Assembly (NCBI GenBank): GCA_030653545.1
Contig: JAURZE010000032.1
Coordinates: 1-50,177, forward strand
Length of the DNA: 50,177 bases
From: Nitrospira sp.
GTDB taxonomy: Bacteria > Nitrospirota > Nitrospiria > Nitrospirales > Nitrospiraceae
Reading direction: 5' to 3'
The translations under genes were made by a program, and so were the position numbers. Positions 27,736-48,603 of this stretch are shown piece by piece. The first letter of the stretch is position 1; each line of letters begins with the position of its first letter. The notes beneath the pieces are model-generated. The model made no database searches. It was not told the DNA's origin and saw only the letters and a list, made by a program, of their open reading frames with translations.

Positions 27736-28998
27736 ATGGCATCAAAAAAACTCTCATCCGCGCAATTAGAGCAAGCATTGCGAGAAAAGACTCGCGAGGT
27801 GGATGTGCTGCATCGGATTAGCGAGTCGATCAGTAACACGCTCGATCTTGAGGCCGTGCTCCGGCATATTGTCGATGTTGTGGTCGAGGTGACGAAAGCG
27901 GACGCCTGTCTTCTGTATCTGCTGTCTGACGGCCGGGATGAATTGATTCTTCGGGCCTCGAAAAATCCTCATCCTCGCCTGATCGGGCGCATTACGATCG
28001 GTCTGGGCGAAGGCATCACCGGCTGGGTGGCCCGTGAGCGGACGCGTGTGGTCGTTCCCAATAATGCCAGTGAGGATCCTCGGTTCAAGTTTTTCAATAA
28101 CCTTCCCGAGGATCGGTATCAGGCTTTTGTCTCCGTGCCGATTCTCGCCAAGAAAGAGGTGAGCGGCGTCATCAATGTGCAGCATAAGCGCTCTCGTCGC
28201 TATCGAGAAGATGAACTCGCGCTCCTCACCACTATTGCCAATCAGGTCGGAGGCGCAATTGAGAATGCCCGCCTCTACGATCAGATGCGCCGGAAGGCGC
28301 TGCAGTTGGAAACGTTGTCGCAAGTCTCAGAGACGGTTGCGTCCAACCGGATAACGGACGATGTTCTTCAGCTGATTGTGACCATGACCGCGCAGATGTT
28401 GGGCTCGAAAATCTGTTCGATCATGCTGCTGGACGAAGCCAGCGGAGAGCTGCGGATTGCTGCCACGCAAAGCTTGAGCGAATCGTATCGGCGAAAACCC
28501 AATCTCAAGGTCGGACAAAGTATCAGCGGGAGAGCTGTCCAGGAGCGACGATCAATCATCGTCCCGGATGTGACGAAAGAGCGGGACTATATGTATTCTG
28601 ACTTAGCGGCGAAGGAGGGGTTTTGTTCGCTGCTGTCTGTGCCGATGATGATGCGGGAGAAGTGTGTGGGCGTAATCAATAGTTACACCTCGGTTCCCCA
28701 TACCTTTACGTCGGAGGAAGTGCGGCTCATGCAGGCGATCGCCAATCAGGCGGCAATTTCCATCGAGCATACAACGTTGTTGGAAAAATCGTTCGAGATG
28801 CAAGAGGCCCTGGCCGTCCGGAAGTTGTTGGATCGTGCGAAGGGGTATCTCATGCGATCCAAGAGGCTGTCTGAGGAAGAATCCTTCAAGCTCATTCAAC
28901 GGCAAAGTATGGACTTGCGGAAATCCATGAGAGAGATTGCTGAAGCAATCCTGCTTGCCGGGGATATCGATGAGCGCGCCGAGAAACGAAAGGTCTGA
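27736..28998 (+). CDS. GAF-GAF-ANTAR RNA-binding regulator
   Basis: The 420-residue protein has a short N-terminal coiled coil, two GAF sensor domains (about 40-180 and 215-355) and a C-terminal ANTAR domain (~358-412: LLDRAKGYLMRSKRLSEEES, FKLIQRQSMDLRKSMREIAEAIL in family pattern). ANTAR domains bind paired hexaloop RNA hairpins and prevent terminators, as known for NasR and EutV. There is no receiver or NIT domain, so the signal must enter through the GAF domains or a partner. Five matching RNA leaders lie 2.4-13 kb downstream. The link between protein and leaders is inferred. Confidence 0.9.
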   Translation: MASKKLSSAQLEQALREKTREVDVLHRISESISNTLDLEAVLRHIVDVVVEVTKADACLLYLLSDGRDELILRASKNPHPRLIGRITIGLGEGITGWVARERTRVVVPNNASEDPRFKFFNNLPEDRYQAFVSVPILAKKEVSGVINVQHKRSRRYREDELALLTTIANQVGGAIENARLYDQMRRKALQLETLSQVSETVASNRITDDVLQLIVTMTAQMLGSKICSIMLLDEASGELRIAATQSLSESYRRKPNLKVGQSISGRAVQERRSIIVPDVTKERDYMYSDLAAKEGFCSLLSVPMMMREKCVGVINSYTSVPHTFTSEEVRLMQAIANQAAISIEHTTLLEKSFEMQEALAVRKLLDRAKGYLMRSKRLSEEESFKLIQRQSMDLRKSMREIAEAILLAGDIDERAEKRKV

Positions 28999-29198
28999 CC
29001 AGGTTCGGAGTTCTCGAATCCGGTCTGGTGCAGCGGATTCAAGTGCCGGACGGTTGAAATGTTGATCGATGTTCCGTCCTTCCTTAGCGTTCTATTTTGC
29101 GATGGTCCCACTACATAGACTCTTGATCATCCACATCTCACGTTCCGATCAAGTTGAGGTTGTTGGAATTGTGCCTGTCTGAGTTTGTGGAGGAGTGG

Positions 29199-30065
29199 CT
29201 AGGGTGAGGCTTTCGGTTTTGACTTGGGCTTGGGTTTGGTCTCCTGTTCCGCTAGCTGCTTCTTGAGCGCCTCCAACTCTGCACGCAAGCCTTCCAGCTC
29301 CTGTGCCTGTTTATCCACGATGGCCCTGATGGCCGGAGCGGACTCGGCTGTCCGCGGGGCGGAACCACTTGCCGGCACGGGAAGGGCTATGGCCGGGGTA
29401 GGGGAAGTCGGGGTGAGCGGTACGGCTGACGGGAGTTTTGCCAGCAGTCCATACGCGAGTGCGACTCTAGGCCGATCCTGCTCGATTTCCATCCAGGTTT
29501 GCGGTGTGGCCGAGGGGATTTGGAAGTCACGAGGCTCGAACGAGAGGGCGTAAATCGAGAGTTGTTCGTCACGCCGATCCGCCAGTGAATGATAATGGCT
29601 GATGGCAAGATACAACACCGGGCCGTCGATGTAGAGTGTTCCATCGGTCACATCGTTGCCGCTCCCGACCTGAAACTTGACTCGGTGGTCCGGTTGCGCC
29701 CGTTTGAGCGCCGTAGCAACGGCCGGGGCTAGAAAAGCGACCTGCTGTGGTGAGAACACCCGGGTGGGTTTCACTCCCTCATATGCGCTGTGATCGTCCG
29801 ATGGGTAAATGCCGATGGAGAGTCCGGCAAACGTCTTGGCTAATGTATCGAGAGGCAGGTCGATCGGGTGACTGGCTTTGAATGCTTTGAGGGGGCCGCT
29901 GTAGCGCATGGTCGTGCCCCGATTGGAGAGCTGCTGGAGGTAGACCGCGCCGTCTGCGCTGTCGGTTACCAGTGTCTGATCGGAAAAGGCTCCGCACCCG
30001 GCCAAAAGCAGAGATCCAACTAGTATGCTGCAGCTCAGTGCGGGTCTGGTTGAATGCCGGATCAT
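29199..30065 (-). CDS. Putative outer-membrane lipoprotein of unknown function
   Basis: I do not recognise a family. From ATG 30065 the 288-residue protein begins MIRHSTRPALSCSILVGSLLLAGC, a clear lipoprotein signal with lipobox LLAGC. The body (~25-200) has many alternating hydrophobic residues, then a Pro/Ala/Thr-rich linker, an E/L/K coiled coil (DKQAQELEGLRAELEALKKQ) and a Lys/Pro tail (KPKPKSKPKASP) that could touch peptidoglycan. It is convergent with the ANTAR gene and divergent from nadE. In-frame starts further upstream (to 30146) exist but would bury the signal. Confidence 0.75.
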   Translation of the reverse strand: MIRHSTRPALSCSILVGSLLLAGCGAFSDQTLVTDSADGAVYLQQLSNRGTTMRYSGPLKAFKASHPIDLPLDTLAKTFAGLSIGIYPSDDHSAYEGVKPTRVFSPQQVAFLAPAVATALKRAQPDHRVKFQVGSGNDVTDGTLYIDGPVLYLAISHYHSLADRRDEQLSIYALSFEPRDFQIPSATPQTWMEIEQDRPRVALAYGLLAKLPSAVPLTPTSPTPAIALPVPASGSAPRTAESAPAIRAIVDKQAQELEGLRAELEALKKQLAEQETKPKPKSKPKASP

Positions 30066-30145
30066 GAGACGCAGTCTAACATAGGTTCTTGAGCGAATCT
30101 TCAGGTCTTCAGGCAACCTCTTCGTTAGAAATGCGGTTTCCTCCA

Positions 30146-30175
30146 TTGACAGGAACGCGGTGGCATTGCTATAAC
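30146..30175 (+). promoter_or_regulatory. Candidate sigma-70 promoter of nadE
   Basis: TTGACA (30146-30151) and TATAAC (30170-30175) are 18 bases apart. Transcription would begin just before the first hexaloop hairpin at 30190, giving a ~255-base leader for nadE. The 373-base gap between the lipoprotein start and nadE is filled by this promoter, the ANTAR-type leader and, at about 30343-30377, an imperfect hairpin of unknown role. Confidence 0.6.
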
Positions 30176-30189
30176 TCGCCCACTAAATT

Positions 30190-30244
30190 CGGAGACAACG
30201 GGGTCTCCGGCTGCTTTGATCGCATTGGTCGGACAATGACGTCC
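30190..30244 (+). promoter_or_regulatory. ANTAR-type double-hexaloop RNA motif, nadE leader
   Basis: Hairpin 1: CGGAGAC (30190-30196), loop AACGGG, GTCTCCG (30203-30209), 7 pairs. Hairpin 2: GGAC (30231-30234), loop AATGAC, GTCC (30241-30244), 4 pairs. Both loops have A1 and G4. The 21-base linker holds a small hairpin GATC/GGTC (30218-30230). The right arm of hairpin 2 is also the left arm of the terminator that follows. Confidence 0.75.
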
Positions 30245-30297
30245 TCCGGCGTTTTCACCCTGTTACGGGAAGAAAAGCCTGAGGGCGTTTTTTTTTG
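30239..30297 (+). terminator. Leader terminator of nadE, exclusive with hexaloop hairpin 2
   Basis: ACGTCCTC-C-GGC-G-TTTTC (30239-30256) pairs with GAAAAGCC-T-GAGGGCGT (30272-30288), 16 pairs with one mismatch and one bulge, then a run of nine or more T. Its left arm begins inside the loop of hairpin 2, so only one of the two can form. Confidence 0.85.
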
Positions 30298-30438
30298 TTG
30301 TGAATGCTGAACACAGCCGCAGGCTTCGTTCTCACTAGTTCAGAACCTCGACGTACCGGACTGGTATGCCTCGGTTCTTCACGTCGCTGCAGCCTTGCGG
30401 GCGACTGTTTTGAGCATTGTTTTGGAAACGGGTAGTTC

Positions 30439-32205
30439 ATGCGCATTCTTCGAATTGCTATGGCCCAGATGAACCCCACGGTCGGCGATATTGCCGGGAA
30501 TACCCGTGCGATCAAGCGCTGGATCAAGGAGGCTCGGAAGGCTAAGGCGGATGTGGTGGCTTTCCCGGAACTGGCGGTGACGGGGTATCCACCGGAAGAT
30601 TTGCTGCTCAAGCCGCGCTTCGTAGCGGACAATCTGCGGGCGCTGGATGAGCTTGCGAAGGAATGTAAGGGCGTGCTCGCGGTGGTCGGCCATGTCGGCC
30701 AGGGACAGGCGGGCAACGGGAAGTCCCGGCAATCGGTGGTCGCGGCGGGGCAGCATGAATTGACCAACTCGGCGGCACTCATCGGCGAGCGGGGCGTGCT
30801 GTGCCAATACAGCAAGTGGATCCTTCCGAACTATGGAGTCTTCGACGAGAGCCGCTACTTTCACCCCGGCCGAACCTTGCCGGTGATCGCACTTCGCGGG
30901 GTCACTATCGGGCTGAATGTCTGTGAAGACATCTGGTTTCCGGACGGCCCGACACGTCTGCAAGCCGCTGCCGGCGCCGATGTCATCATCAACATCAACG
31001 CGTCTCCCTTTCAGATCGGGAAGAGCCGGATTCGCGAGCAGATGCTGGCGACGCGCGCCCGGGAGAACGGCGTGATCGTGACCTACACCAATACCGTGGG
31101 CGGGCAGGACGAGCTGGTGTTCGACGGCAATAGCCTGGTGCTCGATCAGACCGGCGCAGTCATCGCGCGGGCCAAAGCATTCCAGGAAGATTTCCTCCTG
31201 GTTGACTTGAATGCCGATGCGGTGATGCGGCACCGAATGGCGCAGCGGCGGAATAAGGCGCTGAGTGCCAAGCTGGCGGGCGCCGTCGAGCGGATGACTG
31301 TGAAGCTCCCCGCCGCTCCGAAGCGTGCGCGCGTCCTCCCGGGGCTCGAGCCTTTGCGGGAGGAATTGGACGAGGTGTATGCCGCGCTGGTGCTCGGGGT
31401 GCGGGACTATGTCCGGAAAAACGGATTCAAGAAAGTCGTCATCGGATTGAGCGGGGGAATCGACTCGGCTATCACCGCCGTGATCGCGGTCGATGCGCTG
31501 GGCGCAGACAACGTGCTCGGCCTGTTTATGCCTTCGCCCTATACGTCGCAGGACAGCGGTGACGATGTGGCGGAGTTGGCCCGGCGGCTGCACATCGCCT
31601 ATGACACGATTGCGATTACCCCGACGTTCGACGCCTATCGGCAGTCGCTTGCCTTGTCGTTTGAGGGACGGCCGGTCGATACGACCGAGGAGAATCTTCA
31701 AGCGCGCATCCGGGGCAATCTGCTCATGGCCTTTTCGAATAAGTTCGGCCATCTCGTGCTGACCACCGGCAATAAGAGTGAAATGAGCGTGGGCTACGCG
31801 ACCCTCTACGGGGATATGGCCGGCGGGTTTGCCGTGATCAAGGACGTGCCGAAGACCATGGTCTATGACCTTTCGCATTTGCGCAATGCGGTCGGGAAGA
31901 CCCCCGTGATTCCCAAACGTGTCCTCGATCGTCCGCCGACGGCAGAATTGCGCCCGAACCAGAAAGACGAAGATAGTCTGCCGCCCTATCCGGTACTGGA
32001 TCCGATCCTCAAGGCCTATGTGGAAGAGGACCGGTCGCTGGAAGAAATCGTGGCGATGGGATTCGACCGGGCCGTGGCGGCCAAGGTTATCGGTCTAGTG
32101 GATCGCAGTGAATACAAACGGCGTCAGGCGCCGATCGGGATCAAGATTTCGCATCGGGCATTCGGGAAGGATCGGCGCATGCCGATCACCAACGGGTATC
32201 GATAA
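30439..32205 (+). CDS. nadE: Glutamine-dependent NAD+ synthetase
   Basis: NadE makes NAD+ from nicotinate adenine dinucleotide, ATP and glutamine. The 588-residue protein has an N-terminal nitrilase-type glutaminase domain with E44, K126 and C162 as the apparent triad (FPELAVTGYP, YSKWILPNYG, LNVCEDIWFP) and a C-terminal synthetase domain with the P-loop GLSGGIDSAITAVIA and TTGNKSEMSVGYATLYGD. It uses glutamine nitrogen, which fits its position in the nitrogen region and its ANTAR-type leader. No strong ribosome-binding site before ATG 30439. Confidence 0.95.
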   Translation: MRILRIAMAQMNPTVGDIAGNTRAIKRWIKEARKAKADVVAFPELAVTGYPPEDLLLKPRFVADNLRALDELAKECKGVLAVVGHVGQGQAGNGKSRQSVVAAGQHELTNSAALIGERGVLCQYSKWILPNYGVFDESRYFHPGRTLPVIALRGVTIGLNVCEDIWFPDGPTRLQAAAGADVIININASPFQIGKSRIREQMLATRARENGVIVTYTNTVGGQDELVFDGNSLVLDQTGAVIARAKAFQEDFLLVDLNADAVMRHRMAQRRNKALSAKLAGAVERMTVKLPAAPKRARVLPGLEPLREELDEVYAALVLGVRDYVRKNGFKKVVIGLSGGIDSAITAVIAVDALGADNVLGLFMPSPYTSQDSGDDVAELARRLHIAYDTIAITPTFDAYRQSLALSFEGRPVDTTEENLQARIRGNLLMAFSNKFGHLVLTTGNKSEMSVGYATLYGDMAGGFAVIKDVPKTMVYDLSHLRNAVGKTPVIPKRVLDRPPTAELRPNQKDEDSLPPYPVLDPILKAYVEEDRSLEEIVAMGFDRAVAAKVIGLVDRSEYKRRQAPIGIKISHRAFGKDRRMPITNGYR

Positions 32206-32256
32206 CCGTGTGTGTTGCGGGGAGCCTTCGCGGGGCTCCTTCGCCTGTGCCGCATC

Positions 32257-32299
32257 GACCGACGAAGGGGTTGGTCATTTTCACTGGCAATGGCGCCAG
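32257..32299 (+). promoter_or_regulatory. ANTAR-type double-hexaloop RNA motif before the outer-membrane protein
   Basis: Hairpin 1: GACCGAC (32257-32263), loop GAAGGG, GTTGGTC (32270-32276), 7 pairs including one G-T. Linker of 7 bases. Hairpin 2: CTGGC (32284-32288), loop AATGGC, GCCAG (32295-32299). Loop position 4 is G in both; position 1 is G in the first and A in the second. There is no terminator after it; instead ATGGCGCC of hairpin 2 (32290-32297) is complementary to GGCGCCAT at 32364-32371, which covers the end of the ribosome-binding site and the start codon. Confidence 0.65.
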
Positions 32300-32369
32300 A
32301 GTTCGTCATTTTGTTGCTCTCGCTTTGGGAGCAATGAAGAGGCAGGTCTTTTATTCATTTGGAGGCGCC

Positions 32370-33284
32370 ATGCAAAAGGTAGGGTATCGAGGTGTGCGTG
32401 GGTGGGTCGTTGGAACTCTGTTGGGGATCAGTGGGCTTGTTCTTTCTCCAGGAGTGTCTCAGGCCGGTATGACGGATGATTTGATGGATACCACGAAGCA
32501 TCCGGTGTCAGTGACGATGGCCATGCAGGCCGACAGTTTCTTCGGTTTCAATCCGGCGATCTATGGGACCTATGGCCTGACCGACAATGTGGCGCTGGCA
32601 TTCAGTGTGACCTATTGGACGGCCATTTCTGGAATCGGCGTCCACAATAACAACCCGTGGCTGGAAACGGACATGGGGTTGAATCTGACCTTTTTGGACA
32701 AGCGTCTCTCTATTACACCCATGATTGGATTTGTTCATGGACAGTTGCTGTCCTCCCGCGGGGGATTCTTTTCGAACGGCGATGGCGCCACAAACGAACG
32801 GACGACGGCATTCGAGGGTATCGTGCCGAGTCTGACCATGAATTATGTCGACGATCGTTTTGAGGGCGAGTTTTACATGGGGTACTACAAAGCCATTCGG
32901 GAAGAGGGCGGGAAAGCCGGACAGCCCGGCGCGTCAAATTGTACCCAGGTCGGCTCAGGTGATCCCAATTGCTTGCTGACTTCGGCACGCGGAGTGGGGG
33001 GGCGCGGTTCGTGGGACTTCTTGCATTATTGGGCGAACGTGGGCTATCGGGCGAACAGCATGTTTTCACTGGGCGTACACTATGAACAGCTGCTCTCAAC
33101 GCGCGCATCCGCGACAGGCTTAGGAGGAGGATCGCTGCCCGGCTATCAGCAGGATTACTATCGCTGGATTGGACCGTATGTGGAAATGAAGCTGGCGGGC
33201 GGGATGGCGTTCCGGTTTACCGCGGGAAAAGACATGGGGAACAACGAAGATTTCTACAAGTTGAAGTTTACTAAGACGTTCTAG
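32370..33284 (+). CDS. Putative outer-membrane beta-barrel protein
   Basis: A 304-residue protein with a signal peptide (MQKVGYRGVRGWVVGTLLG, cleavage near SQAG) and many alternating, aromatic-rich strands (AIYGTYGLTDNVALAFSVTYW, YMGYYKAIREEG, YRWIGPYVEMKLAGG) ending in a terminal aromatic residue (KLKFTKTF), as in outer-membrane barrels. I do not know a named family with certainty. Position between nadE and amtB suggests uptake of a nitrogen compound (inference). ATG 32370 follows GGAGG at 32361-32365; an in-frame start at 32208 would run through the RNA motif and destroy the signal peptide. Confidence 0.75.
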   Translation: MQKVGYRGVRGWVVGTLLGISGLVLSPGVSQAGMTDDLMDTTKHPVSVTMAMQADSFFGFNPAIYGTYGLTDNVALAFSVTYWTAISGIGVHNNNPWLETDMGLNLTFLDKRLSITPMIGFVHGQLLSSRGGFFSNGDGATNERTTAFEGIVPSLTMNYVDDRFEGEFYMGYYKAIREEGGKAGQPGASNCTQVGSGDPNCLLTSARGVGGRGSWDFLHYWANVGYRANSMFSLGVHYEQLLSTRASATGLGGGSLPGYQQDYYRWIGPYVEMKLAGGMAFRFTAGKDMGNNEDFYKLKFTKTF

Positions 33285-33304
33285 GGCCTAGACGGGCATG
33301 AACG

Positions 33305-33350
33305 GGAGTGGGGCGGGGGGAGCCGATTTCTCCCGCTCCACTCCTTGGGT
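33305..33350 (+). terminator. GC-rich terminator-like hairpin before amtB
   Basis: GGAGTGGGGCGGG (33305-33317) pairs with CCCGCTCCACTCC (33332-33344), 13 pairs with one G-T wobble, followed by the T-poor TTGGGTTTG. It may end or reduce transcription from the outer-membrane protein into amtB. The loop is 14 bases and shows no hexaloop motif. Confidence 0.55.
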
Positions 33351-33381
33351 TTGTGACATTCCGATGCGAAGGAGGCAGATC

Positions 33382-37737
<4,356 letters not shown>

Positions 37738-37790
37738 CCGTCGAAAAGGTCTCACGCAGGTTGTTGTGAGGAGCCTGAAAGGAGGAGGGG

Positions 37791-39200
37791 ATGAACGTCC
37801 GTGAAGTGTTAGAGTTTGCGAAGAAGAACAAGGTCCAGGTGGTGGACTTGAAGTTCGTCGATTTGATCGGAACCTGGCAGCATTTTACGATTCCGCTCGG
37901 CGAGTTGACGGAAGACCTCTTCAAGGACGGGTCCGGTCTGGACGGCTCATCGATCCGTGGATGGAGGGCCATCAACAACAGCGACATGCTGGTGGTGCCC
38001 GATCCCTCGACTGCGACCATGGATCCGTTTTGCGCCGTGCCGACGCTGAGCTTGATCGGCAACGTCGTCGATCCGATCACCCGCGAGACCTACAATCGCG
38101 ATCCCCGCTTCATCGCCCAGAAGGCGGAGAAGTATCTCCAGAGCACCAAGATCGGCGACACCTCCTACTGGGGTCCGGAAGCCGAATTCTTTATCTTCGA
38201 TCAGGCCCGCTACGATCAGACGAATCACAGCGGCTACTACTTCATCGATTCCGAAGAGGGTGTCTGGAACATGGGCCAGGAGGGTGTCAACCTGGGCGGA
38301 AAGATCCGTTCCAAGGAAGGCTACTTTCCGGTGGCGCCGACCGACACGCAGCAGGATATCAGGACCGAAATGGTGCTGGAGATGGAGAAGGCCGGCATTT
38401 CCATCGAGAAGCATCACCATGAAGTGGCCACGGCCGGTCAGGCGGAAATCGACATCCGGTTCGACTCGCTGGTCCGGACGGCCGACAAAATGATGATGTA
38501 CAAGTACATCGTCAAGAACGTCGCGCGCCGTCACGGCAAGACGGCGACCTTCATGCCGAAGCCGATTTTCGGCGATAACGGATCGGGCATGCATACGCAC
38601 CAGAGCATCTGGAAGGACGGCAAGCCCCTCTTCGCGGGCAAGGAGTATGCGGGCGTGTCCCAGATGTGTCTCCACTACATCGGCGGCATTCTCAAGCATG
38701 CGCCGGCTCTGGCGGCGATTACCAACCCGACGACCAACTCCTATAAGCGGTTGACGCCGGGATTCGAAGCGCCGGTGCTGCTGGCCTATTCCAGCCGGAA
38801 CCGGTCGGCGGGTATCCGCATTCCGATGTATTCGCCGAGCCCCAAAGCGAAGCGGATCGAAGTGCGCTTCCCGGATCCCGGTGCCAATCCGTATCTCGCG
38901 TTCGCAGCCATGTTGATGGCGGGATTGGACGGCATCGAGAACAAGATCAATCCGGGCGAACCGGCAGAGAAGGATCTCTACGATCTCGAAGCGAAGGAAG
39001 CCGCCAAGATCAAGACCATGCCGGGCAGCCTCGACGAGGCGCTGAACAACCTCGAAAAGGATCACCAGTTCCTGCTGAAGGGCGGAGTCTTTACCGAAGA
39101 TCTGATTGAAGCCTGGATTAGCTACAAGCGTACCAAGGAAGTCGATACCATGCGGTTGCGGCCGCATCCGTACGAGTTCTTTTTGTACTACGACATCTAG
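37791..39200 (+). CDS. glnA: Glutamine synthetase, type I
   Basis: GlnA makes glutamine from glutamate, ammonia and ATP as a dodecamer. The 469-residue protein shows DGSSIRGW, the metal-binding [27 protein letters not shown], the ATP-binding [16 protein letters not shown], and NRSAGIRIP. Tyr397 in LYDLEAK is at exactly the adenylylation position of E. coli GlnA, although no glnE is in the window. ATG follows AAAGGAGGAGGGG. A hairpin CTCAC/GTGAG lies in the 53-base gap before it. Confidence 0.97.
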
Positions 39201-39229
39201 GACGTGGCCGGCCCATTCGAAAGTATGGG

Positions 39230-39258
39230 TTGACGGTGGACTGGAAGCCGTGTTAGAA
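39230..39258 (+). promoter_or_regulatory. Candidate promoter of the nitrite transporter transcript
   Basis: TTGACG (39230-39235) and TTAGAA (39253-39258) are 17 bases apart with a TG just before the -10 box. Transcription would start near 39265, before the first hexaloop hairpin. The 326-base stretch 39201-39526 holds this promoter and two complete ANTAR-type attenuators, and no gene. Confidence 0.45.
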
Positions 39259-39277
39259 GTACTTGTATGAGCTGATT

Positions 39278-39335
39278 GTGGCAAAGGCGCCACGGTCGAG
39301 GCTCTCGACATAAGGCAACGGACAAAGGCGTCCGT
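39278..39335 (+). promoter_or_regulatory. ANTAR-type double-hexaloop RNA motif 1 before the nitrite transporter
   Basis: Hairpin 1: GTGGC (39278-39282), loop AAAGGC, GCCAC (39289-39293). Hairpin 2: ACGGAC (39318-39323), loop AAAGGC, GTCCGT (39330-39335). The two loops are identical and have A1 and G4. The 24-base linker carries a third hairpin, GTCGAG/CTCGAC with a GCT loop (39295-39309). Hairpin 2 overlaps the terminator that follows. Confidence 0.85.
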
Positions 39336-39370
39336 CATTCTGAAAGGGATGGCGGGCGCCTTTTTATTTT
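39324..39370 (+). terminator. Leader terminator 1, exclusive with hexaloop hairpin 2
   Basis: AAAGGCGTCCGTCATTC (39324-39340) pairs with GGGATGGCGGGCGCCTTT (39346-39363) over about 17 pairs with a few G-T wobbles, followed by TTATTTT. The left arm starts at the first base of the hexaloop, so hairpin 2 and the terminator cannot coexist. Confidence 0.9.
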
Positions 39371-39411
39371 CTGAGCCAGTGAGGCTTCTTCGTCGAAGTC
39401 TTGCGCGTAGA

Positions 39412-39454
39412 GGCAGGTCGTGGCAGACCTGTCGTGAGATGGACAAAGGCGTCC
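39412..39454 (+). promoter_or_regulatory. ANTAR-type double-hexaloop RNA motif 2 before the nitrite transporter
   Basis: Hairpin 1: GGCAGGTC (39412-39419), loop GTGGCA, GACCTGTC (39426-39433), 8 pairs with one G-T. Linker of 7 bases. Hairpin 2: GGAC (39441-39444), loop AAAGGC, GTCC (39451-39454). Position 4 is G in both loops; position 1 is G in the first and A in the second. It repeats the logic of motif 1 about 130 bases downstream. Confidence 0.75.
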
Positions 39455-39491
39455 TTTTCCCTTGAGGGAGAAGGACGCCTTTTGTGTTTCT
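39445..39491 (+). terminator. Leader terminator 2, exclusive with hexaloop hairpin 2
   Basis: AAAGGCGTCCTTTTCCC (39445-39461) pairs with GGGAGAAGGACGCCTTT (39466-39482), 17 pairs with one G-T wobble and a TTGA loop, then TGTGTTTC after a T-rich start. As in module 1, the left arm begins at the first base of the AAAGGC hexaloop. Confidence 0.92.
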
Positions 39492-39526
39492 AGACAATCA
39501 TCGGACGACCTAACCTGGAGGGGACT

Positions 39527-40357
39527 ATGCATCACGCGGATCATGAACGGATCGCAGGGGTGGCAAAGAAGAAGGTGGGGTTTCTTGATACATCATTGGG
39601 TGGGTACCTTGTGTTGTCGGCAATGGCCGGCATCTATCTGGGATTCGGCATCGCCCTGATCTTCAGTCTGGGCGCGCCGCTCGCGGCGGCTGGATCGCCG
39701 GTGGTCAAGCTGGTGATGGGCGCCTCGTTCGGTATCGCTCTGACGCTGGTGATTTTCGCCGGGTCGGAACTGTTCACCGGGAACAATATGATTGGAGCGA
39801 TCGGCGGGCTCTCGCGTAGCGTGACGTGGGGCCAAGTTTTCCAGCTCAACTTCTGGTCCTGGTTCGGGAACCTGATCGGATCGTTGGCGCTGGCCTGGCT
39901 CGTGGTGGAGTCCGGCGTCTTTGCCAAGGGGCCGACGGCCGACATGATTCAAAAAGTGGCCGGGGTGAAGATGTCCTTGGGGCCGTGGGAGTTGTTCGTG
40001 CGCGGCATCTTGTGTAACTGGCTCATCTGTCTGGCGGTCTGGACGGCGGGGCGGACGACCAATGACGCGGCGAAGATCATGCTGATTTTCTGGTGTCTGT
40101 TTGCTTTCATCGGGATCGGGTTTGAACACAGCATCGCCAACCAATCGTTCCTGGGTATGGCGCTTTTCATGCCGCACGAGGCCGCCGTGAGCTGGGCGGG
40201 GTTTTGGTACAACCAACTCTTTGTGGTGCTGGGCAATATTGTCGGCGGAGGGATGTTCGTCGGCGGACTCTATTGGCTCGTGAGTCCCTATCGTGTCGAA
40301 GCAGCGGAATCAGTCACCGTCCCGGTACCGGCCGTGTCGGTGCCGGCAGGATCGTAG
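39527..40357 (+). CDS. nirC: Formate/nitrite transporter family protein (likely nitrite)
   Basis: FNT proteins are pentameric channels for formate, nitrite or similar anions. The 276-residue protein has six membrane segments and family motifs GSELFTGNNM, FGNLIGSLALAW, and the central His in GFEHSIANQSF. The neighbourhood (glnA, cyanase, nirA) points to nitrite uptake for assimilation. GGAGGGG lies just before ATG 39527. The substrate is inferred from context only. The last 25 residues are a Val/Pro-rich tail. Confidence 0.88.
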   Translation: MHHADHERIAGVAKKKVGFLDTSLGGYLVLSAMAGIYLGFGIALIFSLGAPLAAAGSPVVKLVMGASFGIALTLVIFAGSELFTGNNMIGAIGGLSRSVTWGQVFQLNFWSWFGNLIGSLALAWLVVESGVFAKGPTADMIQKVAGVKMSLGPWELFVRGILCNWLICLAVWTAGRTTNDAAKIMLIFWCLFAFIGIGFEHSIANQSFLGMALFMPHEAAVSWAGFWYNQLFVVLGNIVGGGMFVGGLYWLVSPYRVEAAESVTVPVPAVSVPAGS

Positions 40358-40399
40358 TGAGAGAGACCGTTTACCTATCCATATTCTTACAAGGAGACG

Positions 40400-40846
40400 A
40401 TGACGATGTCGAAAGATGAAATTCGGAAGGCCATCAAGGAGAAGCGGGTCGCCAAGAAAGTGACCATTGCCGAGGTTGCGAAGGTTGTGGGGAAAAATCC
40501 CACCTTTGTTGCCGCCGCGTTGAACGGCAATCATAAGTTCACGGCTGATGAAGCCAAGAAGGTCGGTGACTTGATCGGCCTGGATGCCGAGTTGACTGCG
40601 TCGCTCAGCAAGTTTCCGGTACGCACGGATTTCCCCAATACCACAGACCCCTTCAAGTACCGCCTGTTGGAGATTATCGGAGTCTACGGGGATTCGTTGC
40701 GTGAACAAGCGAATGAAATGTTCGGCGACGGGATCATGAGCGCGATCGATTATACGATGGAGATGGAAAAGGTGACGGGCAGTCAGGGCGAGGCCCGCTG
40801 CAAGATTACGTTGAACGGGAAGTGGCTCGAGTATAAGACGTTCTAG
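40400..40846 (+). CDS. cynS: Cyanate hydratase (cyanase)
   Basis: Cyanase turns cyanate and bicarbonate into ammonia and CO2. The 148-residue protein has an N-terminal helix-turn-helix-like domain and the catalytic residues R88, E91 and S114, which equal R96, E99 and S122 of E. coli with a constant shift of 8 (YRLLEIIGVYGDSL, FGDGIMSAIDY). Start ATG 40400 or 40406: AAGGAG at 40391-40396 is closer to ideal for 40406. It lies 42 bases after the transporter and supplies ammonium from cyanate. Confidence 0.96.
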   Translation: MTMSKDEIRKAIKEKRVAKKVTIAEVAKVVGKNPTFVAAALNGNHKFTADEAKKVGDLIGLDAELTASLSKFPVRTDFPNTTDPFKYRLLEIIGVYGDSLREQANEMFGDGIMSAIDYTMEMEKVTGSQGEARCKITLNGKWLEYKTF

Positions 40847-40863
40847 CAAGATCGAGGAACGCT

Positions 40864-40910
40864 GGCGCCGACGATGTTGTCGGCGCCGTTCGGCTGGCAA
40901 TGGCGCCAGC
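40864..40910 (+). promoter_or_regulatory. ANTAR-type double-hexaloop RNA motif between cynS and nirA
   Basis: Hairpin 1: GGCGCCGAC (40864-40872), loop GATGTT, GTCGGCGCC (40879-40887), 9 perfect pairs. Linker of 5 bases. Hairpin 2: GCTGGC (40893-40898), loop AATGGC, GCCAGC (40905-40910). Position 4 is G in both; position 1 is G then A. There is no room for a promoter after cynS, so it acts as an intercistronic switch. Confidence 0.78.
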
Positions 40911-40960
40911 TTCCGGGGCTCTTGAGCGGGGCCTGCTGGAGGCTGGCGCCATTGTGTTTC
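40899..40960 (+). terminator. Intercistronic terminator before nirA, exclusive with hexaloop hairpin 2
   Basis: AATGGCGCCAGCTTCC (40899-40914) pairs with GGAGGCTGGCGCCATT (40938-40953), 16 pairs with one G-T, enclosing a GC-rich loop with its own small hairpin. The tail GTGTTTC is only moderately T-rich. The left arm begins exactly at the first base of the hexaloop. Confidence 0.75.
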
Positions 40961-40982
40961 ACGGCGCAGAAAGGAGGCGACG

Positions 40983-41204
40983 ATGGACATGGAACGAGCC
41001 GGTGATAGGGAACACATGGGATTGGAGAAGACCCTCGGAGACCTGCTGCGCGCCCGCCGAGCGGTGACGCTCGACGATATCGCCGGCGTGCTGGGAGGAG
41101 ACTGTTTTGCGCAGATCTTTCTCACCGTCGATCGGTGGAGCCGGGCGGGAATCGTACGATTAGTACGGGATGTCACTGGATATCGGGTAGAGTTAATCAA
41201 CTAG
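40983..41204 (+). CDS. Small winged-helix-like protein of unknown function
   Basis: A 73-residue acidic/basic mixed protein with a good ribosome-binding site (AAAGGAGG, 5 bases before ATG). I do not recognise a family. The middle part, RRAVTLDDIAGVLGG and FLTVDRWSRAGIVRLVRD followed by GYRVELIN, looks like a winged helix-turn-helix with a C-terminal beta wing. It lies 17 bases before nirA and after the ANTAR-type switch, so it may regulate or assist nitrite reduction (inference). Confidence 0.7.
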   Translation: MDMERAGDREHMGLEKTLGDLLRARRAVTLDDIAGVLGGDCFAQIFLTVDRWSRAGIVRLVRDVTGYRVELIN

Positions 41205-41221: not shown

Positions 41222-42784
41222 ATGAACAAGATCGAGGCGATCAAGGCTGAGCGTGACGGATTGGCGGTGCGGGAGATGATTGCCCACTATGCGACGACCG
41301 GGTGGGAATCGATTCCTGAGGCCGATGTCCAGCGGCTCAAGTGGTATGGCCTCTTTCTGCGCAATCCTACGCCGGGATTGTTCATGGTACGGGTGCGGAT
41401 TCCCGGCGGGCATACGTCGTCGTATCAACTGCGGGCGTTGGCCGAGATTGCGTCGACCTATGGCAACGGAGTCTTGGATCTGACCACCAGGCAACAAGTC
41501 CAACTCCGGAACATCAAGATCGAAGATGTGCCGGCGGTCTTTGCCCGGATGGACGGGGTCGGCCTGACCTCCATGCAAACCGGCATGGACAATGTCCGGA
41601 ACGTCATGACCTGCGCCATCGCCGGGCTCAACCCGGATGAGGTCGTTGAGACTACGGCGCTGGTGCGGGCGATCAACGAAGCGATTCTCGGCAATCCGGC
41701 CTACTCCAATCTGCCGCGCAAGCTGAATGTGGCGGTGACCGGCTGCCCGCATAACTGCGTGCATATGGAGACGCAAGATCTGGCGCTTGTGCCGGCGCAC
41801 TATGATTTGGGGCATGACCGGTGCGCGGGATTCAATGTGCTCGTGGGGGGCAAGCTGGGATCGGGCGGGTATCGAATCGCCACGCCCCTGGATGTGTTCG
41901 TCAATCCGGCCGAGGCGTTGGATGTGTGCCGCGCGATTCTGGAAATCTATCGTGACCATGGGCCGCGGGAGAGTCGCACGCAAGCCCGTCTCGCGTTTTT
42001 GATCGACGATTGGGGCGAGGTTCGATTTCGCGCCGAAGTTGAAGCTCGTCTAGGCAAGCGGCTCGCGTCGGCCGGAATAGATGCCCGGAAAACGGGAGAG
42101 CAAGACCATGTCGGGATCTTCCGTCAACGGCAACAGGGAATGAACTACGCCGGGCTCAAAGTACTCGTCGGGCGGGTGAAAGCGGCGGATCTCGTGAAGA
42201 TCCTGAATTTGTCGGAGAAGTATGGGAACGGGGAAATCCGCATTACCCCAAGCCAGGCGCTGATCATTCCCAATATCAGCGATCGAATGGTCGGGGATCT
42301 GGCGGACGAACCGCTCTTAAAGCAATTCGCCTATAACCCGTCGGCCCTCTATAAAGGCCTGGTCAGCTGCGTCGGCAGCGACTACTGCAATCTGGCGGTG
42401 ATTGAAAGCAAGGGGCGGGCGGTCGCGGTGGCCAAGGCGCTTGAGGGGCGGCTGGGCAATTCGCTCAAGCCGATCACCATGCACTGGTCCGGCTGCCCCG
42501 CGAGTTGCGGCAATCACTTGGTGGCCGATGTGGGGTTGTTGGGGAAAAAGGCCAAAGTCGACGGGAAGGTCGTCGAGGCGGTGGATATTTACGTCGGCGG
42601 CCGGTCGGGGCCCGATCCGAAGCTGGCAGTCAAGATTATGGAAGATGTGCCCTGCGACAAACTTCCAGCAGTGCTCGAAGGCCTGCTGCCCTACCACACA
42701 CGTGAGAAGATGCACCGCGTCCGCGGCGGCGGAGCCAGGAAAGTGCTGGTGGGAAAGGAAGCAAATATTTCGCCTGCGGCATAG
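41222..42784 (+). CDS. nirA: Ferredoxin-nitrite reductase (assimilatory, siroheme)
   Basis: NirA reduces nitrite to ammonium with six electrons from ferredoxin. The 520-residue protein has the paired ferredoxin-like repeats and siroheme-binding motifs, RQQVQLRNI and GMDNVRNVMTCAIAG. The [4Fe-4S]-siroheme ligands are C383-X5-C389 (SCVGSDYCN) and C425-X3-C429 (GCPASCGN). A sulfite reductase cannot be fully excluded, but the context favours nitrite. ATG 41222 has AGGAGG 5 bases before it; longer in-frame starts overlap the 73-residue gene. Confidence 0.93.
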   Translation: MNKIEAIKAERDGLAVREMIAHYATTGWESIPEADVQRLKWYGLFLRNPTPGLFMVRVRIPGGHTSSYQLRALAEIASTYGNGVLDLTTRQQVQLRNIKIEDVPAVFARMDGVGLTSMQTGMDNVRNVMTCAIAGLNPDEVVETTALVRAINEAILGNPAYSNLPRKLNVAVTGCPHNCVHMETQDLALVPAHYDLGHDRCAGFNVLVGGKLGSGGYRIATPLDVFVNPAEALDVCRAILEIYRDHGPRESRTQARLAFLIDDWGEVRFRAEVEARLGKRLASAGIDARKTGEQDHVGIFRQRQQGMNYAGLKVLVGRVKAADLVKILNLSEKYGNGEIRITPSQALIIPNISDRMVGDLADEPLLKQFAYNPSALYKGLVSCVGSDYCNLAVIESKGRAVAVAKALEGRLGNSLKPITMHWSGCPASCGNHLVADVGLLGKKAKVDGKVVEAVDIYVGGRSGPDPKLAVKIMEDVPCDKLPAVLEGLLPYHTREKMHRVRGGGARKVLVGKEANISPAA

Positions 42785-44973: not shown

Positions 44974-45040
44974 TCACGGGTGCTGAGGCAGGCGGTCTCC
45001 GACGGGCCTGCAACGGTCGCGGATGCCGGTGAGGGAACGT

Positions 45041-47122
45041 ATGCCGCTGAACTGGGCCGGCCCGCAATGGTGGAGAGCGCTCAGGGTCCAACGCAAAGTG
45101 TGGACCGTGCTGGTCCTCCTGCTGGCGCCGCTGCTACTCTGGATCGTCGCCTACCTCTACTTCATCCAACAGCTCCTCGTTATTCAGGACCAGCGGCATG
45201 ATGCGCTGCTTGTGCGTGAGCAGCTGCACGTGCTGCGCCGGCTGGCCATCGATATCGACGATGCTCTTCACGGGTACGTTCTCACGCGGGAACAGACGTT
45301 CTTGATTCTCCTCACCGATGCCAAGTCGAAACTTGATATTGCGTTGAGCGGCAAGGCGGATATATCCGAGAGCAATCATTGGGTGATTAGCTATCTTCAG
45401 CGCATGGAAGGAAGGTTGAGAGAATTGCTGCAGTCGCGCCATGAGCTGGTTCGTGACATTCGTGAAGGGCGCTCGGAACAGGCCCTGTCCTATATCCAGT
45501 CCGGAAAAGGGTTCGATCTGTCGGGTGCGGTGCGCGATGATTTTCGCGAGACAGAAGACCGGCTCGACCGTCAGATGCAAAGCTTCAACGATGAGGCGAA
45601 CCGGATCTCAGAGCGGGCGTTCAAGGGGCTCTGGATGGCGGGAGGAGTCCTGGTGCTCCTGGGGTTTGCTGGGTCGCGGGTATTGACCCGGTCCATCACG
45701 GACCCGATCACCCGGCTGCAGGCGGCGACCGAGATGCTCGGCCAGGACATCGATACGGGCAGGGTTCGGCCCCATCTCCTGGCGATGGGGGAAAGCGGTG
45801 ACGAATTGGGGAAGCTGGCGGCGGCGTATCTCGAAATGTCATCGCGCATCGGTGCGCATATCATGGAACTGGAAGCGTTGCTGGCGATCGGGATGGAAAT
45901 CAACACCATCGGACCGGACGGGCTGGACGGTGTCCTGGCCAGAATCACCGATCGGGCGGCGGAACTCGTCGGAGCCGATGTGTGTCTCGTGATGTTGAAA
46001 AACGAGACGATGGGATGCTGGGTGATCGAAGCGGGATCCGGGAGCTGTGACGAGCGGTTGAAGAAATCCGTGATGCTCTGGGAGGAGTTTCCTGTGTGTG
46101 TGCAGGCCTATGAGAGCGGCCAGCCCGCAATAGGGGAGCAGTGTCGCAGCGATCATTGGCCGCAGGTGGTACGGCGGAACCTCATCGGAAACAGCCTGCT
46201 GGCGATCCCGCTTCGGGCGCAAGGAAAACCATTCGGTGTGCTCGCATTGGTCAGCGAACGGCCTCGGGCGGCTCATGAGTGGAATCAACGTCTAGCCAAG
46301 GGAATGGCGCAGGCAGCGGCGGTGGCGATCTCGAATGTGCGGCTTTATGAAGCCGCGCAGCAAAAACAACGGGGGTTGTCGGCCCGATTACGGCAGTTGG
46401 AGCATTTGGCGGAAACCTTGGCGCACGATCTCAAGGGGCCTGGCGCGAGGATGGAAGAGTTGGCCAGGCTGTTGAGGCGGCAGTATAGCGGTCAAGTCGA
46501 TGAGCGCGCCGCGCGATGGCTCGCGTTGATTCAGGAGAATGGAGAAGATCTTGTCCGGCGCGTAGAGGGAATTTTAGAGGTGGCACGCGTGGGGACCGGT
46601 CAAGGGGCCGTCGCCGCGGTGGACCCTTCCATGGTGATTAGTGAGGTGCTCAAGGAGCGCGCGGAGGAGATCAGCCGTCAACGCACATCGGTACGGGTCG
46701 ATCCGGGGCTGCCGCTCGTAGCCTGTCACGGGTCCTACCTGCGACAGGTATTCGATAACGTGATATCCAATGCGCTCAAGTTTGCCCGCCCGGGCGAACC
46801 GCCGTCGATTCATATCGGCGCGGTGATGCAGGACCGAATGGTGTGTATCTCGGTGAGCGATCGCGGGATCGGCATCCCCCTTGCCCTGCGACAGCGGGTC
46901 TTTCATCCGTTTATCCGGCTGGCGGCGGGATCGGCGCCCGGCAGCGGCATTGGGTTGACGATCGTTCAGCGGATTGTCGAGCTGTACGGAGGCCAGGTGT
47001 GGATCGAGGGAGATGAGGGGGAGGGCTGCACGGTGAAATTTACGGTGCCGTGTCTCGGTGGGCAGGCCTTTGCGATGCCGGGAACCCCTGGCACTATTGA
47101 GGTGGCGGAGCGAGGAATCTAA
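45041..47122 (+). CDS. Membrane sensor histidine kinase with CHASE3-like, HAMP and GAF domains
   Basis: The 693-residue kinase has a first membrane helix (VWTVLVLLLAPLLLWIVAYLYF), a periplasmic helical CHASE3-like sensor (~45-185), a second helix (GLWMAGGVLVLLGFAGS), a HAMP domain, a GAF domain (~280-430), the phospho-acceptor H462 in LAHDLKGP, and an ATPase domain with N box DNVISNALKFA, G1 SDRGIGIP and G2 SGIGLTIVQRI. ATG 45041 follows GGTGAGGG; ATG 45023 adds six residues. It lies 11 bases before the response regulator. Confidence 0.93.
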   Translation: MPLNWAGPQWWRALRVQRKVWTVLVLLLAPLLLWIVAYLYFIQQLLVIQDQRHDALLVREQLHVLRRLAIDIDDALHGYVLTREQTFLILLTDAKSKLDIALSGKADISESNHWVISYLQRMEGRLRELLQSRHELVRDIREGRSEQALSYIQSGKGFDLSGAVRDDFRETEDRLDRQMQSFNDEANRISERAFKGLWMAGGVLVLLGFAGSRVLTRSITDPITRLQAATEMLGQDIDTGRVRPHLLAMGESGDELGKLAAAYLEMSSRIGAHIMELEALLAIGMEINTIGPDGLDGVLARITDRAAELVGADVCLVMLKNETMGCWVIEAGSGSCDERLKKSVMLWEEFPVCVQAYESGQPAIGEQCRSDHWPQVVRRNLIGNSLLAIPLRAQGKPFGVLALVSERPRAAHEWNQRLAKGMAQAAAVAISNVRLYEAAQQKQRGLSARLRQLEHLAETLAHDLKGPGARMEELARLLRRQYSGQVDERAARWLALIQENGEDLVRRVEGILEVARVGTGQGAVAAVDPSMVISEVLKERAEEISRQRTSVRVDPGLPLVACHGSYLRQVFDNVISNALKFARPGEPPSIHIGAVMQDRMVCISVSDRGIGIPLALRQRVFHPFIRLAAGSAPGSGIGLTIVQRIVELYGGQVWIEGDEGEGCTVKFTVPCLGGQAFAMPGTPGTIEVAERGI

Positions 47123-47133
47123 CGAGGTCAATC

Positions 47134-48603
47134 ATGGCACAGAGCGGAGTTCTCGACATTCGTACGATGAAAAAGCGATCCAAGATCCCGTTTACGATCT
47201 TGATCGTCGAAGACAATGCCACGGATGTGGAATTGATGCTGCACGCGCTGGAAGACGCCGACCTCAAGCCCCTCGGCGGAGACTTCGAGATGGAAGTCCG
47301 TGCGACCGCGGAGGGAGCGCTCGATCTGCTCAAGGAGCGTGCGGTGGATCTGGTTCTGACGGATATGATGTTGCCCGCCATGGACGGACTGGATCTGGTG
47401 AGCCGCATTCAGTCGATCGATCCCAACCTGCCGGTCCTGGTCGTGACGCGCATGAACGGCGTGTCGATGGTCGTCGATGCGATGCGTCGAGGTGCGTTTG
47501 ACTATGTGGTGAAACCGGTCAACGCGAAGGATCTGGGTATGCGACTGCACCGGGCGATCCGGATTTCTGAGATTCTGAGGCGCCATGCCGTCTACGAATA
47601 TCAGGAACGCCAGGAAGGCGAAGCCAACAGCCTGGTCGGTGAGAGCGCTTCGTTTGAACGGGTGATGCGGACCATCCAGGAAGCCGCGCGGGTGCGCTCG
47701 ACGGTCTTGATCACGGGTGAAACCGGGACCGGCAAAGGGATGATCGCGAGAGCGATTCATCACCAGAGCCCTGAACGGGATCGCCCCTTCCAGGTGATCG
47801 ATTGCACCACGGTGCCTGAAGGCATGATGGAGAGCGAGCTGTTCGGCCATGTGCGGGGCGCGTTCACCGGTGCGATCGCCGATAAGCCGGGTTTGATCGA
47901 ACTGGCGAACGGGGGTACGGTCTTTCTGGATGAAATCGGCGAACTTCCGTTGCTGCTGCAAGCCAAGCTCCTTCGTGTGCTGGAGGAAAGTGAAGTGCGT
48001 CCCGTAGGCGGCACCAGAGTCCGGCGGGTCGACATGCGGTTTATCGCCGCCACAAATCAGAATCTGGAAGACCGCGTCCGTGAGGGGACTTTCCGCCGCG
48101 ATCTGTATTATCGTCTTGCCGTGGTGTCGATTCCGGTGCCGCCGCTGCGCGAGCGCCCGATGGACATTCCCGTGATGGCGCGACACCTGCTCGCGCGCCT
48201 CTCGCGCGAAATGGGGCGTGCCAGATGCCATTTCGACGAAGCGGCGCTCGGGGTGCTCTCCGCCTATTCGTGGCCCGGCAACGGACGGGAGTTGCGCAAC
48301 GTGGTGGAGCGCGCGGTGATGCTCGCGGCCGGGGACACGGTCACAGAGCGCGACGTGCGCCCTTTGCTTCCGAAGCGGGACGTGGAGCGTATGCTGTCGC
48401 ATGAACGGGATCTCTGCGCCTTGCCCTATACGGAGGCCAAAGAACGGGCCATCGAGGAATTCACCAAGGTCTATTTGCGCGACAAACTGGCTGCCGCGGG
48501 CGGGGTCATTACCAAGGCGGCTGAAAACAGCGGTATTCCCCGCCAGCATTTCTCTCTGCTGATGAAGCGATTTCTTGGCACCGAGGGGTCGGACGAGTCC
48601 TAG
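47134..48603 (+). CDS. Sigma-54-dependent response regulator (NtrC family)
   Basis: The 489-residue regulator has a receiver domain with phospho-acceptor D77 (DLVLTDMM), an AAA+ domain with Walker A GETGTGKGM, the sigma-54-contacting GAFTGA at residues 242-247, Walker B GGTVFLDEIGEL and RFIAATNQNLE, and a C-terminal helix-turn-helix (GVITKAAENSGIPRQHFSLLM). Such proteins remodel RpoN-RNA polymerase at -24/-12 promoters. It is paired with the kinase, and a -24/-12 promoter lies 353 bases downstream before nxrA. Confidence 0.95.
   Translation: MAQSGVLDIRTMKKRSKIPFTILIVEDNATDVELMLHALEDADLKPLGGDFEMEVRATAEGALDLLKERAVDLVLTDMMLPAMDGLDLVSRIQSIDPNLPVLVVTRMNGVSMVVDAMRRGAFDYVVKPVNAKDLGMRLHRAIRISEILRRHAVYEYQERQEGEANSLVGESASFERVMRTIQEAARVRSTVLITGETGTGKGMIARAIHHQSPERDRPFQVIDCTTVPEGMMESELFGHVRGAFTGAIADKPGLIELANGGTVFLDEIGELPLLLQAKLLRVLEESEVRPVGGTRVRRVDMRFIAATNQNLEDRVREGTFRRDLYYRLAVVSIPVPPLRERPMDIPVMARHLLARLSREMGRARCHFDEAALGVLSAYSWPGNGRELRNVVERAVMLAAGDTVTERDVRPLLPKRDVERMLSHERDLCALPYTEAKERAIEEFTKVYLRDKLAAAGGVITKAAENSGIPRQHFSLLMKRFLGTEGSDES

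Follow-up and report, generated by a model that had tools for sequence, protein, structure and literature searches.

The closest described counterparts of the system treated here are the nasF leader of Klebsiella oxytoca, read by NasR, and the eut leaders of Enterococcus faecalis, read by EutV; both have two hairpins with six-base loops (hexaloops; the hairpins are called P1 and P2 here), a G at loop position 4 (G4), and a P2 that overlaps an intrinsic terminator. The NasS-NasT regulon of Bradyrhizobium diazoefficiens also covers nitrogen genes and has an ANTAR protein as its reader, and a hairpin in its nirA leader and lower glnK2 in a mutant are reported in the available part of PMC6759348. 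Several nitrogen-gene leaders per genome were also predicted by Ramesh 2012 in Desulfotomaculum acetoxidans and Pelobacter carbinolicus, in phyla and gene sets that differ from ours (PMC3369931, in part), and actinobacterial ANTAR RNAs tie a dual hexaloop to the translation start (PMC8164766, in part). We examined a 50,177-nucleotide stretch of Nitrospira sp. DNA (contig JAURZE010000032.1; "the window" is this whole stretch), which encodes a protein with two GAF domains and an ANTAR domain (GAF-GAF-ANTAR) and carries five dual-hexaloop leaders among nitrogen genes. To the extent that sequence can show it, this is a real ANTAR regulon, and we put the probability of the mechanism proposed below at roughly 85%. 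The protein and the leaders are as follows.

27736..28998, + strand: GAF-GAF-ANTAR protein, 420 amino acids, assigned by Pfam; sole ANTAR match in the genome
30189..30300, + strand: leader 1, before nadE; P1 loop 30197-30202, P2 loop 30235-30240, terminator overlapping P2
32257..32372, + strand: leader 2, before the DUF6733 gene; P1 loop 32264-32269, P2 loop 32289-32294
39276..39363, + strand: leader 3, upstream member of a tandem pair before nirC; loops at 39283 and 39324, terminator 39324-39363
39403..39482, + strand: leader 4, downstream member of this pair; loops at 39420 and 39445, terminator 39445-39482
40866..40953, + strand: leader 5, before a small open reading frame (ORF) and nirA; loops at 40873 and 40899, terminator-like hairpin 40899-40953 with a weak T-run

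A sequence-only reading of the window had claimed five paired-hexaloop sites, and all five can be read directly in the sequence, each with two stem-loops of at least 3 bp and six-base loops. The loops of P1 and P2 are AACGGG (30197) and AATGAC (30235) in leader 1, GAAGGG (32264) and AATGGC (32289) in leader 2, AAAGGC (39283) and AAAGGC (39324) in leader 3, GTGGCA (39420) and AAAGGC (39445) in leader 4, and GATGTT (40873) and AATGGC (40899) in leader 5. Its further claims of G4 in every loop (10/10) and of A at position 1 (A1) in all five second loops hold as well; A1 is present in two of the five first loops, and the remaining three start with G. The 5′ arm of a terminator begins inside the second hexaloop in four leaders (at 30190, 39276, 39413 and 40866), again as proposed, and no convincing terminator was found at leader 2 (32257). 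Loop-to-loop distances in the window fall into two classes, 25-26 bases (leaders 2, 4 and 5) and 38-41 bases (leaders 1 and 3). This spacing and the G that opens three of the five first loops distinguish the window leaders from those of NasR and EutV.

When folded freely, leaders 1, 3, 4 and 5 form P1 and the terminator, and forcing P1 and P2 costs 7.6, 11.9, 18.1 and 14.4 kcal/mol, respectively, versus only 1.1 kcal/mol in leader 2; P2 is thus predicted to be mutually exclusive with the terminator in these four leaders and not in leader 2. A plainer explanation is that the hairpins are ordinary intrinsic terminators of upstream genes (glnA, cynS, others), or attenuators, with no ANTAR role, and leaders 3 and 4 do stand directly behind glnA and fold as strong terminators. 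However, an ordinary terminator requires neither a preceding hexaloop hairpin nor G4. Dual hexaloops with A1/G4 alone are modestly enriched in the window (16 with stems of at least 4 bp, versus a mean of 6.15 in 20 Markov sequences; 4 versus 0.8 with at least 5 bp, two of the four being claimed sites). With an overlapping terminator added, the descriptor found four sites on both strands, all of them claimed ones, versus none in the 20 Markov sequences; this descriptor, which was drawn up with the sites already known, misses 40866 and takes 32257 on a weak incidental hairpin alone. Applied to loci L001-L111, of which L001 is the window itself and some share genomes, it found 56 sites in 1.40 Mb, and a single one in 0.95 Mb of Markov sequence derived from 60 of the loci.

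We also scanned with no loop letters imposed, requiring only stems and an overlapping terminator. In the nadE upstream regions of 40 named loci, 17 matched and 23 did not; among the matches G4 was present in 17/17 P2 and 15/17 P1 loops, and A1 in 15/17 P1 and 11/17 P2 loops, the other six P2 loops having G. Across 40 whole loci (L002-L041), 19 of 3010 scanned windows matched, with G4 in both loops of all 19 and A1 in 17/19 P1 and 19/19 P2 loops, while Markov upstreams matched in 0 of 200 cases. P1 also covaries: five of its six pairs are altered on both sides with 95.1% of cells paired, a level reached by none of 500 shuffles (60 matches, 80 named loci), in alignments that lean toward structure, the seed coming from a descriptor that required stems and G4 and the second (A2) being fitted to the model. 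Covariation of P1, retention of G4 without its being imposed, and the recurrence of tandem copies before nirC or NrtA-like genes all argue against plain terminators.

A covariance model (R1) built from the leaders of 30 relatives, with the window excluded, recovers the leaders at 30190 (45.1 bits, E 2.6e-10) and 39276 (36.0 bits, E 5.2e-8) and matches 39403-39456 (20.9 bits, E 3.4e-4), where the P2 half alone aligns well; it misses those at 32257 and 40866. A second model (R2) finds all five at E of at most 2.6e-5, having been trained on them. Elsewhere in the genome the best E values were 0.063 (R1) and 0.465 (R2) among the 150 of more than 1400 candidates scored in each search, and leaders of short-linker type can escape, the R2 genome search reporting three of the five window leaders. 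The best outside match, C3:1934-2000, was rejected as a further leader, showing no dual hexaloop by eye. Rfam gave no match in the window at gathering threshold; the small RNA P11 family of Pseudomonas (RF00625) scored 25.8 and 25.3 bits on leaders 4 and 3, well under its gathering threshold of 70. Matches to sigma-70-like promoters are close to shuffle level (6 versus a mean of 4.1).

The putative reader of these leaders, the product of 27736-28998, matches Pfam ANTAR (PF03861) at E 4.9e-18 (65.1 bits versus a curated cut-off of 27.3) and GAF in two stretches; searching its own genome with PF03861 returned this one gene. Pfam matches in the protein are to GAF models and ANTAR only, with no match to the NIT input domain, so that two GAF inputs stand here where NasR and EutV have NIT or receiver domains. 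We aligned it to structure 6wsh_A (listed as "Response regulator"), which we take to be EutV with numbering shifted by 2. Most EutV contact residues, as given in the part of PMC8934654 available to us, are common to both proteins: R142, K143, K149, E160, M172 and R175 are identical, Y164 is replaced by F and K147 by R, and the positions of R142, K143, K149, E160, Y164, M172 and R175 are conserved to 98% or more among 80 homologues. The first GAF domain (GAF-A) is nearest in sequence to a Geobacter domain (3e0y) and to PtsP GAF domains (3ci6, 3trc), and NifA was also matched. A structure model (predicted local distance difference test 77.3, predicted template modelling score 0.42) is consistent with two GAF domains, a long helix and ANTAR; its Foldseek matches were tandem-GAF and PtsP GAF domains, which identify no ligand. 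NasT is held by a separate sensor, NasS, whereas the window protein joins sensor and ANTAR domain in one chain (no NasS search was made).

We surveyed 175 genomes of the family, 79 of them in the window's own genus. An ANTAR match is found in 104 (two matches each in two genomes) and an R1 match at E 0.01 in 114. At this threshold leaders occur in 103 of the 104 ANTAR-positive genomes (the miss is G133), versus 11 of the 71 ANTAR-negative ones (G002, G004, G013, G063, G071, G074, G118, G127, G154, G155 and G170); Fisher's p is 3e-34, a statistic that ignores relatedness, for a contrast that stems from one genus. Within the own genus, leaders occur in 14/14 ANTAR-positive and 5/65 ANTAR-negative genomes; the latter figure becomes 3/65 at E 1e-5 and 7/65 at E 0.1, the former remaining 14/14 at both. 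This rarity of leaders where the ANTAR gene is missing is again not what plain terminators would give. A covariance-model search of relatives had been proposed along with the original claims, and conservation, P1 covariation, loop G4 and own-genus co-occurrence with the ANTAR gene bear those claims out.

Full-length NirA is encoded by 11 of the 79 own-genus genomes, 10 of them ANTAR-positive and the eleventh G063; four more have partial matches at 36-37%. The ANTAR-positive genomes without NirA are G055 (taken as N. moscoviensis), G094, G122 and G123, and N. moscoviensis is reported to use an octaheme reductase instead of NirA (PMC6606698, in part). A close relative, G120 (L182), has a second NirA homologue of 71% identity at G120:C58:259326-260849. 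The ammonia monooxygenase (AMO) family (PF02461), on whose match alone our label comammox is placed, occurs in 49 of the 79; ANTAR is absent from 48 of these, the exception being G072 (54% complete). Outside the own genus AMO occurs in 12 genomes, all of genus g17, all 12 ANTAR-positive and 11 with leaders. We therefore rejected a general loss in comammox: as far as these matches reach, one comammox lineage is without the ANTAR system and another retains it. Comammox bacteria are described in print as lacking nitrite assimilation (PMC6311188, in part).

Several of our observations weigh against an ANTAR regulon. First, some of its parts are imperfect: A1 fails in three of the five P1 loops of the window, residues R168, N173 and R177 of EutV differ in the window protein, and leader 5, with its weak T-run, was seen in only three genomes among nine corresponding stretches read (the window genome, G120 and G063). 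Second, the P2 stems are nearly invariant and hence give almost no covariation support for P2; covariation says little here because these stems hardly vary. Third, the co-occurrence rests on one genus, which holds 65 of the 71 ANTAR-negative genomes, and is inflated by shared ancestry. Outside that genus leaders are present in 89 of 90 ANTAR-positive genomes but also in all six ANTAR-negative ones; these six are 72-89% complete, and gaps in the assemblies may explain why no ANTAR gene is seen in them. Because leaders there accompany absence of the gene as often as its presence, we place less weight on the regulon and more on plain terminators than we otherwise would. Fourth, two near-complete ANTAR-negative genomes, G071 and G118, have strong leaders. 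Fifth, 13 ANTAR-positive genomes (the 12 of the other genus and G072) carry an AMO-family gene; the system therefore does not depend on nitrite being the only nitrogen source.

The individual exceptions are of different kinds. In G063 the leader lies about 1.1 kb from a contig end, and in G074 and G127 the R1 matches are weak. In G071, which is AMO-positive, a well-formed leader (L198 10109-10171) follows ureD, as a plain terminator might, and no long ORF comes next on the same strand, although it looks like a relic to us; by eye, its downstream sequence is similar to that of the window nadE leader. G118 (99% complete, no ANTAR match) has its leader (L199 10226-10291) before a lipoprotein-like ORF, and by eye a third hexaloop-like hairpin is present there. 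Taking both sides together, we regard it as very improbable that the leaders are plain terminators.

The genes behind the leaders in the window are listed here.

30439..32205, + strand: nadE, glutamine-dependent NAD synthetase (CN_hydrolase and NAD_synthase)
32370..33284, + strand: DUF6733 protein gene, heading a row that continues with amt, glnK, glnD and glnA (Pfam on a longer ORF; start codon read from the sequence)
33298..39200, + strand: amt, P-II (glnK), glnD and glnA
39527..40357, + strand: nirC-type formate/nitrite transporter
40400..40846, + strand: cynS, cyanase
41222..42784, + strand: NirA-type ferredoxin nitrite reductase

In line with the proposed coupling of these genes, nadE, nirC and nirA each have a leader before them; cynS has no leader of its own and sits after nirC and before the leader at 40866. 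In relatives, we took as downstream gene the longest ORF starting at most 650 bases after the leader, with Pfam run on representatives, for 142 of the 164 listed R1 matches; some genomes appear in several sets and these are not independent. The 142 leaders precede nadE (44), a BBP2 porin cluster (31), a family without Pfam match (21), nirC (15), a dCache-PAS histidine kinase cluster (8), NrtA/CynA-like genes (NMT1_2; 6), Peripla_BP_5 genes (2; presumably UrtA-like), amt (1), a NirB-type reductase (1), others (10) or no ORF (3). Many of these genes serve nitrogen acquisition. ANTAR gene, leader and nadE follow in succession at ten chosen loci outside the closest group. A leader pair after glnA was found at 10/10 loci holding that place, the second copy scoring weakly in some; it stands before nirC at six (L182, L185, L191, L193, L196, L197) and before an NrtA-like gene at four (L184, L187, L189, L195). 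Two overlapping leader-like pairs with a common middle hairpin are seen at L006 10438-10500 (loops AGCGTC, AAAGTA, AACGAA), and likewise in L104. The regulon had been called local, which is right for the window genome within the reach of the models; leaders of relatives, however, also precede porin, NrtA-like, amt, NirB-type and UrtA-like genes; judged by its genes and RNA motifs, the ANTAR/leader system is widespread in Nitrospirales and not special to the window.

Leader 2 had been counted in an antitermination regulon, and here the earlier view needs correction: this leader is not terminator-based and is tied instead to the DUF6733 start codon. Bases of its P2 loop and 3′ arm can pair with the end of GGAGGCGCCATG (32361-32372), and the complementary start-site pattern of the DUF6733 gene is GG(C/T)G(C/T)CAT. 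Searching with this pattern gave 31 matches in 28 of 175 genomes, versus 8 for a reversed control, and translation behind seven window-like matches yielded DUF6733 in all seven, from three genera, while one more locus tried yielded nothing. Of 16 distinct DUF6733 starts compared, L193 and L197 lack the P2 hairpin as well as the start site that would pair with it, and the remaining 14 show both; the 14 were chosen by their P2 and start-site letters, seven having been fetched by the pattern itself. Across the 14 leaders the loop-to-loop distance is constant at 25 bases, and 79-92 bases separate the beginning of the P2 loop from the end of the start codon. In seven sequences, start-site changes keep pairing through G-U and the loop change in L025 loses one pair; no double (compensatory) change was seen in the helix of P2 and start site in these seven, so the helix is supported by conservation, not covariation.

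Folding gives a mixed answer on the direction of control at this leader. In 14/14 DUF6733 leaders folded freely, P2 takes up 7 to 9 of the 12 bases from Shine-Dalgarno to AUG in pairing, of which the simple reading is release on ANTAR binding. When P1 and P2 are forced, however, accessibility of the Shine-Dalgarno sequence rises in only 2/14, which weakens a clean model of ANTAR freeing it; the mean unpaired probability of GGAGG falls in the other 12, as would be expected if binding repressed translation, and such repression is reported for ANTAR RNAs of mycobacteria and actinobacteria (PMC8164766, in part). We think that repression here falls not far short of an even chance. In the actinobacterial RNAs the motif itself lies over the ribosome-binding site or start codon, whereas in leader 2 P2 competes with a long-range helix.

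The natural reading of the other leaders is antitermination by a protein-stabilised P2, on the model of EutV and NasR. We infer protein-RNA binding, direction and signal as follows. The GAF-GAF-ANTAR protein would be a one-component sensor of nitrogen status whose ANTAR domain, in one ligand state, binds the P1 and P2 hexaloop hairpins of the nascent leader RNA via G4; P2 held folded would block the overlapping terminator and allow read-through into nadE, nirC-cynS and nirA. At the DUF6733-amt leader P2 would compete with the helix over part of the Shine-Dalgarno sequence and AUG, giving control at translation, up or down.

As signal we favour glutamine or general nitrogen status via GAF-A, given the likeness of GAF-A to PtsP GAF domains and the reported binding of glutamine by the GAF domain of EINtr (PtsP) (PMC4848567, in part), with nitrite or nitrate second. 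The same regulon responding to nitrite or nitrate would resemble NasR and NasT, which respond to nitrate (PMC7496416 and PMC6759348, in part); nirC, NrtA-like, nirA and NirB-type genes are among the targets, and there is a weak match to the nitrate-sensing NCBIfam NreA (E 1.4e-4, 21.7 bits versus a cut-off of 175). But amt, UrtA-like and nadE genes are also targets, GAF-A is nearer to the GAF domains of PtsP and NifA than to NreA, nitrite oxidizers presumably live amid nitrite and nitrate, and the N. japonica octaheme nitrite reductase is reported to be unexpressed upon ammonia addition (PMC6606698, in part). A nitrite or nitrate signal thus seems unlikely to us, though it deserves real weight. 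Returning to glutamine, a bolder proposal, which we offer tentatively and at clearly less than even odds, is that GAF-GAF-ANTAR is a conserved post-initiation master switch of Nitrospirales nitrogen acquisition, acting through terminator- and start-codon-coupled leaders, sensing glutamine through a PtsP-like GAF domain, and lost, RNA sites included, from one comammox lineage as that lineage abandoned nitrite assimilation.

Nitrospira carry out nitrite oxidation in natural and engineered ecosystems. Ammonia switching off their nitrite reduction, and a nitrogen-assimilation cluster, are described in the available parts of PMC6311188 and PMC6606698, which name no regulator; the GAF-GAF-ANTAR protein with its mapped RNA sites is a concrete, conserved candidate. 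If the regulon is true, one RNA-binding switch protein and matching RNA switches would explain on/off control of nitrogen uptake and assimilation genes, and the own-genus pattern of presence and absence, which ties loss of regulator and sites to a comammox lineage, makes that step testable. The double-GAF input, earlier put forward as new, does differ from the NIT and receiver inputs of known systems, but ANTAR with GAF is an architecture already listed (PMC3369931 and PMC7496416, in part). The GAF-input class was without a characterised example in 2012 (PMC3369931, in part), and the window protein would be a member with identifiable targets. Searching titles and abstracts, we found no publication on this regulator or its RNAs in Nitrospira or other nitrite oxidizers, though Table S2 of Ramesh 2012 (1902 genomes) may list N. 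defluvii; the available part of PMC4395418 does not treat the regulator or leaders. We did not find the input architecture and phylum of this ANTAR regulon described; the nitrogen cluster itself is known, clusters of such type, nadE included, being already in print (PMC6311188, in part).

The host genome is 3.94 Mb and 99.9% complete, with the window on contig 32. The gene order is aroB, GAF-GAF-ANTAR, a reverse ORF, nadE, DUF6733, amt, P-II, glnD, glnA, nirC, cynS, a 73-codon ORF and nirA; a Pfam search of the reverse ORF gave no match. Relatives with the same ANTAR protein include N. moscoviensis (L007, 88% identity) and N. defluvii (L017, 86%), the loci being titled Nitrospira or relatives. 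The 73-codon ORF (40983-41204), between leader 5 and nirA, is also present in several relatives. Downstream of the nitrogen cluster, 45023-48603 has matches to a histidine kinase and an NtrC-like sigma-54 regulator, a possible second layer of nitrogen control.

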